A stretch of 64,000 bases of DNA from an uncultured Oscillospiraceae bacterium. GTDB taxonomy: Bacteria; Bacillota; Clostridia; Oscillospirales; Oscillospiraceae. The first letter of the stretch is position 1. Every line of letters starts with the position of its first letter. Positions 20,274 to 29,243 of the stretch are shown here, piece by piece. The DNA is taken from the NCBI GenBank assembly GCA_944387015.1, contig CALXDH010000004.1, positions 29,435 to 93,434 on the forward strand, written 5' to 3'. The notes beneath the pieces are model-generated. The model did no database searches, was not told the origin of the DNA, and worked only from the letters and a program-made list of their open reading frames with translations. A program made the position numbers and the translations under genes.

Positions 20274-20310
20274 GCTTTCGTTCTCCTTTCCTCTTCCGAA
20301 GATCGAAATA

Positions 20311-20386
20311 CTGGCAGCCGGGCCGGCGTAGCGTCACCGCTTTAGCCCCCTTGCTTTGCGTCCCGGGGTTTCCCCCGGTTTGCCAT
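20311..20386 (-). promoter_or_regulatory. Cyclic di-GMP-I (GEMM-I) riboswitch aptamer
   Basis: On the minus strand the leader reads UGGCAAACC, a GGGG-GAAA-CCCC tetraloop helix, GGGACGCAAAGC, GGGGCUAAAGC and a closing CGGCUGCCA. These are the conserved GEMM-I blocks in the right order and spacing; GGCAAACC and GACGCAAAGC are diagnostic. The base before CAAACC is G, as in c-di-GMP-binding rather than cGAMP-binding members. The aptamer ends about 38 nt before the adhesin ATG and about 20 nt before its ribosome site. No T-tract terminator lies in between, so control of translation or RNA stability is more likely than attenuation. Confidence 0.92.
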
Positions 20387-20404
20387 TTCAGTCATTTCCG
20401 ATTG

Positions 20405-21159: not shown

Positions 21160-22218
21160 TTACGCCCCCAGCCGGCGGCGCATCTGCTCTGCATTGTCGG
21201 CATAGTCCAGAGCGGTTTCCCGACTGATCTTTCCGGCCTGATACAGTGCCAGAATGGATTGATCCATGGTCACCATACCATCGCCGCTTCCGGCGGCAAT
21301 GGCGTTATCGATCTGATGGCTCTTGCTGTCCCGGATCATGCTGCGGATCGCCGGTGTCATGTGCATGATCTCAAAGGCAGGCACCAGTCCGCCGTTCTGG
21401 TCCGGCAGCAGCTGCTGAGACACCACTGTCCGCAGCACCATGCTCAGCTGCACCCGGATCTGGGCCTGCTGTGCCGGCGGAAAGGCATCCACGATGCGGT
21501 CAATGGTGTTGACCGCTCCTTTGGTATGGAGCGTGGCGATCAGCAGATGACCGGTCTCCGCCGCCGTCATGGCGGTGCGGATCGTCTCGTGGTCCCGCAT
21601 CTCTCCCAGCAAAATCACATCCGGTGCCTGCCGCAGACAGGCCCGCAGCGCCGAGAGATAGTCCGCCGTATCGATGGCGATCTCCCGCTGGCTGACGATG
21701 CTGCGCTGGTCCCGGTGGAGGAACTCAATGGGATCCTCCAGGGTAATGATATGGGCCTCCCGGGTACGGTTGATCCGGTCAATGATGCAGGCCTGGGTAG
21801 TGGACTTTCCGCTGCCGGCGGTGCCGGTGACCAGCACCATGCCGTGGCCTGTATCCGCAAGATCCATTACCGTCTCCGGAATCCCCATGGATTTCCAGTC
21901 TGGGATTTCAAAAGAGACCACCCGGACCACTGCCGCCATAGAACCCCGCTGCCGATACGCATTTACCCGGAACCGGGCCAATCCCGGCACGGCAAAGGAA
22001 AAATCATCGTCCCCCGCAGCCTGGTACCGGTCCATGGGCCGGTTTGCCAGCTTGTAAATCTCGGAGATCAGGTGCTCCGTCTCTGGCGGAAATACCTTTT
22101 CCGTTCCAATGGGACGCAGACGACCCTCGGCCTTCTCGCTGACCACGCCGCCGGCCACAATAAAGAGGTCCGATGCCCTGTCCGCCACCGCCTGCTTCAA
22201 ATATTCCACCAATTCCAC
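21160..22218 (-). CDS. PilT-like twitching/retraction ATPase
   Basis: A 352-residue hexameric secretion ATPase. The Walker A TGTAGSGKST is at 131-140, the Asp box EDPIEF at 161-166, Walker B VILLGEMRD at 201-209 and the His box HLLIATLHTKGA at 224-235. The C-terminal PAIRSMIRD matches the PilT AIRNLIRE signature, so it resembles retraction rather than extension ATPases. I choose the GTG at 22218, 22 nt after the previous stop and behind GAGGAGG; a longer open frame upstream overlaps the previous gene and is unlike the family. It ends a six-gene operon. No PilB-type extension ATPase is present in the window. Confidence 0.9.
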   Translation of the reverse strand: MELVEYLKQAVADRASDLFIVAGGVVSEKAEGRLRPIGTEKVFPPETEHLISEIYKLANRPMDRYQAAGDDDFSFAVPGLARFRVNAYRQRGSMAAVVRVVSFEIPDWKSMGIPETVMDLADTGHGMVLVTGTAGSGKSTTQACIIDRINRTREAHIITLEDPIEFLHRDQRSIVSQREIAIDTADYLSALRACLRQAPDVILLGEMRDHETIRTAMTAAETGHLLIATLHTKGAVNTIDRIVDAFPPAQQAQIRVQLSMVLRTVVSQQLLPDQNGGLVPAFEIMHMTPAIRSMIRDSKSHQIDNAIAAGSGDGMVTMDQSILALYQAGKISRETALDYADNAEQMRRRLGA

Positions 22219-22240
22219 TGTTGCTTCCTCCTCATCCGTT

Positions 22241-22642
22241 TCAGGATGCGCCGTCCCAAACTTCCAAATCCTCTTCCGCCTGCCAGTCCGCAGTGGACAC
22301 CGCCTGCCAGCGCAAAACGGTATAGGCGCTTTCGTCCACCCGGACCTCCACCTGGAGCGTCTGCGTATCCGAGATGGGGCAGGTATAGGAATACACATCT
22401 CCCCGAACGCTGACACCCTCCGGCACGGTTCCGCTGCGCAGTTGGGCCAGGATCGTTTCCGCCTGGCAATCCGCCGCATAATATCCGGATACGGTCTGGG
22501 CAGACGCGTCCGAAAGGCGGCTGTTGGCCTGAACTGTGGCAAGGCCCAGCAGCGCAAACACTGTCAGGCACAGCACTGCAAAAATCACCAGCAAAGAGCT
22601 GCCGCCCACCGCCGGCGGAAAAGAATCCCGCCGCTCATCCAT
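22241..22642 (-). CDS. Small membrane protein of the pilus-like operon
   Basis: A 133-residue protein with one N-terminal membrane helix (SLLVIFAVLCLTVFALLGLA, near 15-35) and an extracellular part. It resembles a minor pilin or pilus-assembly protein in size and topology. It lacks a clear prepilin peptidase motif (G|xxxxE). The ATG at 22642 lies behind GGGGAGG and overlaps the previous gene by 8 nt. Confidence 0.7.
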   Translation of the reverse strand: MDERRDSFPPAVGGSSLLVIFAVLCLTVFALLGLATVQANSRLSDASAQTVSGYYAADCQAETILAQLRSGTVPEGVSVRGDVYSYTCPISDTQTLQVEVRVDESAYTVLRWQAVSTADWQAEEDLEVWDGAS

Positions 22643-26304: not shown

Positions 26305-27504
26305 ATGGTTGCTGATACGCTGCGAGTACAGATGCTGGGCGAATTCACGCTTCAATATGGCTGTCAGGAAATCTCGGACAATGACAATCGCTCCCGAAAG
26401 GTTTGGCTGCTGCTGGCATACATGATATACTGCCGCAATCGGTCCGTCTCTCAGGAGGATCTTGTGAATCTGCTGTGGGGAGAGGAAGAGCGAAGTTCCA
26501 ATCCTCTCAATGCGCTCAAGACCATGTTCCACCGCGTCCGCACCATGCTCAATCAGTTGGATGCCTCTGCCGGACACACGCTCATCATCCGGCGGGACGG
26601 CAGTTACGCCTGGAACCCGGATGTGGAGTTTTTCTTTGATGTGGAGGAATTTGAGGCTCTGTGCCGGGCGGGAGCCGCCGCCGCAGAGAAAGATGTCCGT
26701 TTGGAAAACTATCTGCAGGCGCTGGATCTCTACCAGGGCGATTTTCTCACAAAACTCTCCGCTGAGCCTTGGGTGGTCCCCATCTCCGCGTATTTCCACA
26801 ATCTCTACACGCAGACCGTTCTGGAGACGCTCCCCCTGCTGGAGGCCCAGGACCGGCTGACGACTGCGGTTTCCCTGTGCCGCAAGGCGGTGGCTCTGGA
26901 GCCGTATAACGAAACCCTCTACCGCCATTTGATGCAGGAGCTGCTCTCCATGGGGGACAACCAGGGTGCCATCACCGTCTACGAGGAGATGAGCGAGCTG
27001 CTGTTTTCCAACTTCGGCATCATGCCGTCGGAGGAGCTGCGGGAACTGCACCGCCAGGCGGCCCGCACCGTAAACGACCGGGCCGTGTCCATGAGCGCGG
27101 TGCAGGAACAGCTGCGGGAGCCGGACGGTCCCCGGGGCGCACTGGTCTGCGAGTACGACTTCTTCAAAATCTTGTATCACGCCGAGGCCCGCTCCATTCT
27201 GCGCAGCGGCAACGCCGTCCACATCGGCCTTCTCTCCGTTACCAGCGAGTCCGGCGGAGAGCTGCCCAAGCGCAGCCTGGACCGGGTGATGGAAAACCTG
27301 CTGGATCTGATCCGCAGCTGTTTGCGCAAGGGAGACATCGCCTCCCGGTGCAGTGTTTCCCAGTTCATTCTCATGCTGCCCCAGGCCAACTATGAAAATA
27401 GCTGCATGGTCTGCGAGCGGATCATCAAGTCCTTCTGCCGGCAGTATCCCCACTCTCCGGCCCAGCTGCATTATACCGTGCAGCCTCTGGAGCCCAACGT
27501 ATAA
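26305..27504 (+). CDS. SARP/BTAD-type transcriptional regulator with a degenerate GGDEF-like C-terminus
   Basis: A 399-residue regulator. Residues 1-105 are an OmpR-like winged helix of the SARP type (VQMLGEFTLQYG, RKVWLLLAYM, LNALKTMFHRVR). Residues about 108-255 are the bacterial transcriptional activation domain, a TPR-like helical array (YNETLYRHLMQELLSMGDNQGA). The last 110 residues resemble a GGDEF domain: GNAVHIGLLSVT, then R-C-S-V-S-Q-F at 348-354 where R-x-G-G-D-E-F is expected, then ILMLP and VCERI. All catalytic residues are lost. The ATG at 26305 follows GGGGGAGG. The gene is monocistronic, between promoter and terminator. Targets are unknown; the pilus-like operon and adhesin are nearby candidates. 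Confidence 0.85.
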   Translation: MVADTLRVQMLGEFTLQYGCQEISDNDNRSRKVWLLLAYMIYCRNRSVSQEDLVNLLWGEEERSSNPLNALKTMFHRVRTMLNQLDASAGHTLIIRRDGSYAWNPDVEFFFDVEEFEALCRAGAAAAEKDVRLENYLQALDLYQGDFLTKLSAEPWVVPISAYFHNLYTQTVLETLPLLEAQDRLTTAVSLCRKAVALEPYNETLYRHLMQELLSMGDNQGAITVYEEMSELLFSNFGIMPSEELRELHRQAARTVNDRAVSMSAVQEQLREPDGPRGALVCEYDFFKILYHAEARSILRSGNAVHIGLLSVTSESGGELPKRSLDRVMENLLDLIRSCLRKGDIASRCSVSQFILMLPQANYENSCMVCERIIKSFCRQYPHSPAQLHYTVQPLEPNV

Positions 27505-27556: not shown

Positions 27557-28963
27557 TCAATACCGGCCCAGAGAGGCAGCGGTATCGGACGTTGCGGTCT
27601 TTCCGAAGTGGAAGTCGTTGCCCGGGAGAATCGCGTTGAGGGCGATCCCCGCGATGGCAGCGATGGCCAGGGAGGTGAGTGTGATGGACACCTCACCGAT
27701 GTGGAACGTCAACCCGTCGGTAAAGCCCAGGCCGCACACCAGAATGACGGCAGCAATGATGAGGTTGCGGGAGTTGGTAAAGTCCACCTGGTTTTCCACC
27801 ACGTTCCGCACGCCGATGGCGGAGATCATGCCGTAGAGGATGAAGCTGACACCGCCGATGATGGCAGAGGGGATGGAGCTGACGAAGGCGGCGAACAGGG
27901 GGCTGAAGGAAAGCACGATGGCATAGAGGGCTGCCAGCCGGATCACCCGGGGATCGTGGACCCGGGAGAGCACCAGCACGCCGGTGTTCTCGCCGTAGGT
28001 GGTGTTGGCAGGACCGCCGAACAGTCCCGCAAGAGAGGTGGCGATACCGTCACCGATGAGGGTCCGATGCAGGCCGGGATCCTCGATGAAGTTCTCACCC
28101 ACCGTGGCAGAGATGGCGGACATGTCACCGATATGCTCCATCATGGAGGCGATTGCGATGGGCGCCATCACCAAAATGGCGGAGATGTCAAACTTGGCAA
28201 CGCTGCCGGTGAAGTTGGTGACAAACGGCTGGAACCCCAGGATCGGGGCATCCGCCATGCCGGAAAAGTCCAGCATGGGGCCGGTGGCACCGGTAGCGGC
28301 GTCGGTGATCACCGTGGCGCCGCAGGCGTTGGCGATCACCGCCACCAGATAGGCGCCCACAACGCCCAGCAGGATGGGAATGATCTTGATCATGCCCCGG
28401 CCCCAAATGTTAGCCACCACGATGATGGCCATGGACACCAGTGCCAGCCACCAGCAGGTAGACGCGTTGGACACGGCGGAGGGGGCCAGGTTCAGTCCGA
28501 TCAGGATGATGATGGGGCCAGTGACCACCGGGGGCAGGAAATGCATCACCCGGTGCACGCCCACCACTTTGATGATGCCGGCCAGCACCACATACAAAAG
28601 GCCGGCTACCACGATGCCGCCGCAGGCATACTGGAGCTTCTCCGCGCCGTCCATACCGGCGTAGATCCCGCTGTCCATCGCCCCCATGGCAGCAAATCCG
28701 CCCAGGAATGCAAAGGACGAGCCCAGGAATGCCGGGACCCGCAGCTTCGTGCAGAGGTGGAAAAAGAGCGTGCCGATACCTGCGAAAAACAAGGTGGTCT
28801 GGATCGACAGCGGCAATCCGTAGGTGTTGACCAGGATGGGCACCAGCACCGTGGCGCCGAACATGGCGAACATGTGCTGCAGGCCCAGGATCAGCATCTT
28901 GGGCATGCCCAGGGTCCTGGCGTCCCGGATGGGCTGCTGCCGGGAGGTCTTTGTCTCGTTCAT
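27557..28963 (-). CDS. uraA: Uracil/xanthine-type permease (NCS2 family)
   Basis: A 468-residue membrane protein with about 14 helices. It starts with the family block MLILGLQHMFAMFGATVLVP and has the substrate-site motifs ISAISATVGENF-like and NTTYGENTGVL, which are close to UraA/PyrP uracil transporters. Cotransport of uracil with protons is inferred from the family. The ATG at 28963 follows GAGAGGAG; a longer frame would read through the leader. The expression signals upstream (promoter, leader peptide and terminator) suggest control by pyrimidine supply. Confidence 0.88.
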   Translation of the reverse strand: MNETKTSRQQPIRDARTLGMPKMLILGLQHMFAMFGATVLVPILVNTYGLPLSIQTTLFFAGIGTLFFHLCTKLRVPAFLGSSFAFLGGFAAMGAMDSGIYAGMDGAEKLQYACGGIVVAGLLYVVLAGIIKVVGVHRVMHFLPPVVTGPIIILIGLNLAPSAVSNASTCWWLALVSMAIIVVANIWGRGMIKIIPILLGVVGAYLVAVIANACGATVITDAATGATGPMLDFSGMADAPILGFQPFVTNFTGSVAKFDISAILVMAPIAIASMMEHIGDMSAISATVGENFIEDPGLHRTLIGDGIATSLAGLFGGPANTTYGENTGVLVLSRVHDPRVIRLAALYAIVLSFSPLFAAFVSSIPSAIIGGVSFILYGMISAIGVRNVVENQVDFTNSRNLIIAAVILVCGLGFTDGLTFHIGEVSITLTSLAIAAIAGIALNAILPGNDFHFGKTATSDTAASLGRY

Positions 28964-29006
28964 GTGTGTTCTCCTCTCTTTCATACGTGCAATTCCTGTC
29001 CAGGGC

Positions 29007-29034
29007 AAAAAAAATACCGGCAATAAAGCCGGTC
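29007..29034 (-). terminator. Attenuator terminator in the uracil permease leader
   Basis: Minus-strand ACCGGC / GCCGGT stem with a TTTATT loop followed by ATTTTTTTT. It lies 45-70 nt before the permease ATG. Its 5' arm begins inside the stop codon of the leader peptide. Confidence 0.85.
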
Positions 29035-29107
29035 AAACAGGAATCCGAAAAAAACGAAAAAAGGGGACCATCGCCGCTGCATCGCAAAAGCCGTTCCAAC
29101 GCTGCAT
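29033..29107 (-). CDS. 24-residue leader peptide of the uracil permease attenuator
   Basis: A short frame on the minus strand from ATG (29107) to TGA (29033-29035). It is preceded by a strong ribosome site, GGGAGGGAGG, at 29115-29124 with 7 nt spacing. It encodes MQRWNGFCDAAAMVPFFRFF followed by RIPV. The FFRFF codons are TTT TTT CGT TTT TTT, so the RNA is U-rich just before the terminator, and the stop codon overlaps the terminator's first arm. This is the arrangement of the E. coli pyrBI leader, in which UTP shortage stalls RNA polymerase at U-runs and a following ribosome blocks the terminator. Confidence 0.7.
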   Translation of the reverse strand: MQRWNGFCDAAAMVPFFRFFRIPV

Positions 29108-29137
29108 ACCGAATCCTCCCTCCCGTCATTTTGATTC

Positions 29138-29166
29138 ATTATACAAAAAGCCGCTGCCTATTGCAA
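29138..29166 (-). promoter_or_regulatory. Sigma-A promoter of the uracil permease leader
   Basis: Minus-strand TTGCAA (29161-29166), 17-bp spacer, TATAAT (29138-29143). The transcript would start near 29131, about 10 nt before the leader ribosome site. Confidence 0.8.
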
Positions 29167-29214: not shown

Positions 29215-29243
29215 AAATGACGAAGCGGATCGCTTCGTCATTT
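29215..29243 (-). terminator. Intrinsic terminator of the DUF523 gene
   Basis: AAATGACGAAGCG / CGCTTCGTCATTT stem followed by TTTTT-type bases on the minus strand; the DUF523 stop codon lies inside the stem. Confidence 0.8.

Follow-up and report, generated by a model that had tools for sequence, protein, structure and literature searches.

A short reading frame whose stop codon shares a base with an intrinsic terminator precedes a UraA-like permease gene in the genome of an uncultured, gut-type Oscillospiraceae bacterium, and we consider it likely that this leader is a pyrBI-type transcription attenuator, one that senses UTP, acts on an uptake gene and has its stop fused to the terminator. 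The leader lies on the minus strand of the window, the 64,000-nt stretch of contig CALXDH010000004.1 (assembly GCA_944387015.1) that was analyzed as a whole. A previous sequence-only reading had put forward the pyrBI-type UTP mechanism, and the sequence tests proposed with it speak for such a mechanism.

Table 1 Features of the permease leader and its target gene, numbered from the first base of the window
Feature	Position	Strand	Basis
Sigma-70-type promoter, TTGCAA (29166-29161), 17 nt, TATAAT (29143-29138)	29138..29166	-	Consensus match 10/12
Leader ribosome site GGAGG	29115..29119	-	Sequence; SD and ATG also in relatives
Leader frame MQRWNGFCDAAAMVPFFRFFRIPV and stop, 24 codons; ATG 29107-29105, TGA 29035-29033	29033..29107	-	Sequence, relatives
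U-tract T6 (29062-29057), CG, T7 (29054-29048), supposed UTP-sensitive pause region	29048..29062	-	Sequence
Intrinsic terminator (attenuator), stem ACCGGC-TTTATT-GCCGGT (29033-29016), A, T8 (29014-29007)	29007..29033	-	Sequence, fold
NCS2 nucleobase permease, UraA-like (uracil permease)	27557..28963	-	Family models, solved-chain matches

The sequence-only reading had described a near-consensus promoter, a strong ribosome site followed by a 24-codon frame with TTT TTT CGT TTT TTT codons, and a stop overlapping the first arm of a T-run terminator upstream of the permease; this description was correct at each point checked. Base 29033 serves both as the A of TGA and as the first base of the 6-bp stem, so that the stop begins at −2 relative to the stem, and the two T-runs occupy the last third of the frame. 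Thus, a short SD-bearing frame precedes an intrinsic terminator, a U-rich in-frame tract lies within ~30 nt of the stem, and the frame reaches the terminator at a point where a ribosome could block it, as expected of a pyrBI-type leader. The terminal T-run is separated from the permease ATG (28963-28961) by 43 nt, and no promoter-like site was found between terminator and permease. The preceding gene on the same strand ends at 29238, with a hairpin adjoining. A −10-like hexamer is present in all 48 leaders that were compared, at a median of 36 nt before the leader ATG, and is an exact TATAAT in 30 of them. The terminator alone folds with −11.9 kcal/mol, and the stability of the whole leader exceeds that of its shuffles by a modest margin only (z −1.81). 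In the fold of the full-length leader, a further pairing of GGAUUCCUGU with ACAGGAAUU (28983-29050, minus strand) encloses the terminator.

The product of the gene behind the leader has 468 residues and is an NCS2 nucleobase symporter (TIGR00801, 301.9 bits vs a cut-off of 291.8). The uracil permease equivalog model matches it with a score below its cut-off, and its best-matching solved chains are uracil permeases (E 3.8e-55). Relatives of the permease directly follow pyrR in eight family genomes (G004, G051, G073, G076, G084, G102, G109, and G136), which helps to identify uracil as the probable substrate. The permease named in the sequence-only reading is therefore UraA-like by family and by its matches to solved uracil permeases, and the leader would stand before a pyrimidine gene. 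Elsewhere in the window, a c-di-GMP-I riboswitch at 20310-20394 (minus strand; 77 bits vs a gathering score of 35) is found near pilus-like genes, including a PilT-like ATPase recognized by eye at 21160-22557, and the frame at 26305-27504 (plus strand) encodes a protein whose N-terminal part is SARP/AfsR-like and whose C-terminus weakly matches diguanylate cyclases. A lysine riboswitch lies downstream of the permease gene in a relative from the same genus (L010 1136-1311, minus strand).

Relatives of the locus were drawn from 61 genomes of the genus, 150 genomes of the family, 80 loci on named contigs and later additions, giving 158 distinct upstream regions after removal of duplicates. A tolerant rule called a leader frame reaching the terminator in 68 of these regions, and the first stop base takes position −2 relative to the stem in 31 of them and −1 in another 9; the 90 regions without a call include the Lachnospiraceae loci listed and many distant members. 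Within the genus, 36 of the 61 genomes carry a close orthologue (at least 70% identity), and the upstream region was read in 34. Twenty-nine leaders were called by script, one region is a duplicate of a called region (L230 = L043), and four leaders were recognized by eye; the stop of L151 immediately precedes the stem, those of L167 and L170 fall within the loop, and that of L172 is found where the permease starts. Loss of the short frame from close orthologues had been named beforehand as evidence against the pyrBI-type reading; the frame was kept in the genus regions read, by script or by eye.

The leaders drift considerably. Between two genomes with 98% identical permeases, 63 of 75 leader nucleotides and 19 of 25 peptide positions (stop included) are alike, the distance from ATG to stem ranges from 17 to 34 codons among leaders, and the listed peptide sequences differ widely. 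On a tree of 52 family permeases, the leader label changes 11 times compared with a shuffled mean of 17.6, suggesting that the leader was repeatedly gained, lost or missed. Individual loci have layouts of their own: in L155 and L172 the frame extends across the terminator and ends in an ATGA overlap with the permease start, nearer the arrangement of E. coli pyrL; by eye, the ribosome site of L020 itself lies inside the 5′ arm of the terminator, and the U-run of L011 and L012 belongs to the hairpin.

For an unbiased test of the frame, the strongest SD-ATG located 35-135 nt before the best terminator was taken regardless of frame; a terminator and a strong SD-ATG were present in 48 of the 158 upstream regions. 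The frame was open to the stem in 48/48 leaders (mean 29.9 and maximum 39 in 500 dinucleotide shuffles of the body), and the stop fell within −4 to +2 of the stem in 36/48 (shuffles: mean 12.2, maximum 19). The shifted frames of these 48 leaders gave 0 and 2 exact stops at the stem. When the shuffle test was applied to the 68 leaders preselected for an open frame, 45 had exact stops compared with a mean of 15.4 and a maximum of 23; because the relatives share ancestry and no correction was made for kinship, all of these shuffle numbers overstate independence. These results demonstrate, by sequence comparison, that the open leader frame is under selection, and they lend indirect support to a need for leader translation in read-through.

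The arrangement is also rare outside this locus. When 464 kb of the same genome (the window and a 400-kb sample) was scanned, a strict signature was matched by only 1 of 147 terminator-like sites, namely this leader, and a looser rule added three sites of this genome, with 13-30% T before the stem. In 1.88 Mb comprising the window and the loci (both strands, duplicates counted), the strict signature occurred 45 times, 45/45 before this permease. Terminators of ordinary genes in this genome often lie near stops (23/59 within 12 nt). What is unusual is therefore the small U-rich frame preceding a gene, and not the mere closeness of stop and terminator. By eye, no pyrBI-like leader was seen at the other pyr genes inspected in this genome (pyrB, carA, the pyrC-K-D-F-E cluster, and upp), among which pyrB, carA and pyrD were found with family models and the remainder were named by eye; the region read upstream of pyrB comprises only 244 nt before the contig end. 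Two similar long hairpin-like repeats were noticed by eye in this region, before pyrB and near the contig end (L149, upstream of pyrBI).

The base composition before the stem is distinctive. In the 48 leaders, the T fraction of the three 10-nt blocks preceding the stem is 0.45, 0.55 and 0.56, vs 0.24-0.28 further upstream, and the A fraction drops to 0.07-0.09. The last 20 nt contain 55% U, spread over all codon phases; T-runs of at least 4 start 22, 31 and 31 times in the three phases, and the last 12 codons encode a mixture of F, S, L, V, I, A, and P. Codon choice follows the same trend. Among Phe codons, TTT accounts for 76% in the leaders but for 24% in the permease genes that they precede at these 48 loci, with corresponding shares of 77% and 21% for Ile ATT, 56% and 7% for Val GTT, and 39% and 5% for Leu CTT; TCT is likewise favored in the leaders. 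The U content of the leader RNA thus seems to be under selection, at silent positions too, which would implicate UTP and the polymerase and not a charged tRNA. The occurrence of U-runs in all phases with mixed amino acids similarly fits sensing of UTP, not of Phe-tRNA.

PyrR attenuation requires the PyrR protein, and no PyrR over the family cut-off is encoded in the genus genomes (0/61, incomplete assemblies included); the genome studied here is 99.6% complete. Six of 14 named genomes, searched in the same way as controls, did have a PyrR over the cut-off. The genome studied here has eight PF00156 proteins, which were judged by eye to be HPRT-, PRPP synthase-, PurF-, Upp-, PurR-, PyrE-, ComF-, and Xpt-like, with no PyrR among them. 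In the family, 26 of 150 genomes have a PyrR over the cut-off. Permease upstream regions were read in 53 family genomes, the best 53 of the 113 with any permease match, and here a leader was found in 26 and PyrR in 9, with no overlap, and neither in 18 (Fisher p 0.0018, uncorrected for kinship). The model for PyrR-type RNA (RF00515) gave no match in the window at E up to 10, nor in 20 leader loci or 20 leaderless loci that include eight pyrR-permease junctions; since it also missed 10/10 family pyrR loci, the absence of this RNA is weak evidence.

Based on these data, we propose a likely mechanism for the leader. Transcription would start ~24 nt before the leader ATG, as judged from the −10 box. 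With ample UTP, the polymerase would have cleared the U-tract before the first ribosome arrives, leaving the terminator to fold and the permease off. When UTP is short, the polymerase would be slowed in the U-tract, and the ribosome translating the leader frame would catch up with it. At the stem-fused stop, this ribosome would cover the 5′ arm, so that the terminator could not fold, the permease would be transcribed and uracil would be taken up. A ribosome footprint reaches ~12 nt ahead, and a ribosome terminating at −2 would accordingly cover the whole 6-bp arm; in a fold with the ribosome-covered stretch blocked, the terminator is absent by construction. A hairpin before the U-tract is not consistent among leaders (mean z −0.38 over 46 leaders, 13/46 below −1.5) and is doubtful as a defining feature. 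Further points that count against the mechanism are the 90 uncalled upstream regions, the 18 family genomes with neither leader nor PyrR, the repeated changes of the leader label on the permease tree, the pairing that encloses the terminator, and the inspected pyr genes at which no such leader was seen.

In E. coli, termination was reported to fall from ~90% to <10% when a stop 28 bp ahead of a terminator was moved up to a distance of 5 bp, an effect that was lost when translation was uncoupled (PMC4824070). Bacillota are classed among the bacteria whose polymerases outrun ribosomes (PMC13323073), and terminators close to stops are taken as a sign of such runaway transcription (PMC7858274). 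Ribosome catch-up may therefore be harder in these cells than in E. coli. A runaway polymerase would by default terminate in the leader, and the ribosome would catch it only after it has been slowed. A broader proposal is that a UTP-sensing catch-up attenuator arose independently in a Firmicutes family, in PyrR-less lineages with runaway polymerases, where termination is the default and UTP shortage recouples transcription and translation at one spot; we regard this proposal as about as likely as not.

Other explanations of the leader have to be weighed against a UTP-sensing attenuator. The window peptide contains FFRFFR, and at least one Phe codon occurs in 47/48 leaders, features that would suit an amino-acid attenuator in which ribosome stalling at Phe (or Arg) codons controls the terminator, as in phe leaders. 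Such control is quite improbable. The leaders do not carry an in-frame Phe run chosen for its amino acid, as the U-runs begin in all three phases, the last 12 codons are mixed, and TTT codons are three times as frequent as TTC codons, even though the two are normally read by a single tRNA. Moreover, the target is a nucleobase permease, and folds of the window leader revealed no alternative arm freeing or blocking the terminator, save the enclosing GGAUUCCUGU/ACAGGAAUU pairing. That the frame is a small gene with its own terminator and no relation to the permease would agree with the frequent closeness of terminators and stops in this genome; we consider it improbable, given that the peptide drifts at near-identity of the permease while silent-site U is kept, that no promoter-like site was found beyond the terminator, and that the frames of L155 and L172 extend through the stem to the permease start.

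A pyrimidine-rich leader could also be a Rho site that is hidden by leader translation. Pyrimidines indeed make up 71% of the 40 nt preceding the stem, and in species whose transcription is of the runaway type, Rho is described as targeting pyrimidine-rich RNA (PMC13323073). However, the window leader has a full intrinsic terminator, as do the called relatives by the rule used, and the last 20 nt hold about twice as much U as C, making Rho-dependent control very improbable. We see an equally slight chance that a protein or RNA ligand of an undescribed kind acts on the leader RNA, with the small frame being only a part of the system. Among the 44 PyrR-less family genomes examined, 18 have no called leader, so other control must exist, and the enclosing pairing in the window leader is a further point in favor of such a ligand; yet neither the window leader nor 20 leader loci have an Rfam match, no consistent structure precedes the U-tract, and the listed peptides are widely different in sequence.

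Anatomy and comparative evidence thus suggest a UTP-sensing attenuator, and the literature searched yielded no report of one for this phylum, this gene or this geometry. That search covered listed titles and abstract openings, with most subscription journals outside its scope, and returned no account of a leader of this kind, either ahead of a uracil permease or within the Oscillospiraceae. If true, the reading would extend a textbook mechanism of Proteobacteria to Bacillota, reveal a possible stand-in where PyrR is absent, and provide a natural reporter of ribosomes catching up with a slowed polymerase in a phylum thought to be uncoupled. It would also supply a sequence rule for finding such switches, namely a small U-rich frame with its stop fused to a terminator.

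The leader is reminiscent of E. coli pyrBI, as judged from the K-12 sequence of pyrL, in its SD, its short leader frame and the pyrimidine-related gene close behind. In pyrL, TTTTTCTTCCC lies ~18-28 nt before a T-run terminator, and the U-rich tract here is likewise within 30 nt. In contrast, pyrL has 44 codons that run through the terminator to a stop 44 nt after the stem start, whereas the present frame has 24 codons and a stop on the first stem base. The two systems further differ in phylum, in the control of a synthesis gene there and an uptake gene here, and in the hairpin before the U-tract, which E. coli pyrL has and these leaders do not consistently have. The stop position is closer to that of the E. 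coli pyrE attenuator (rph-pyrE), where a U-rich stretch leads to a stop immediately ahead of the terminator, although the translated frame there is a full gene and here a small separate one. PyrR attenuation of Firmicutes pyr genes (pyrR-pyrP) has the same kind of target, and permease relatives sit directly after pyrR in the eight family genomes listed above, but the protein on which it depends was not found over the cut-off in this genus. Finally, the His leader peptides predicted for hisS/hisZ in Bacilli (PMC2965389) are a case of leader-peptide attenuation replacing another sensor in Firmicutes, as proposed here; they are argued in that source to sense an amino acid through codons, unlike the present leader, which would sense UTP.
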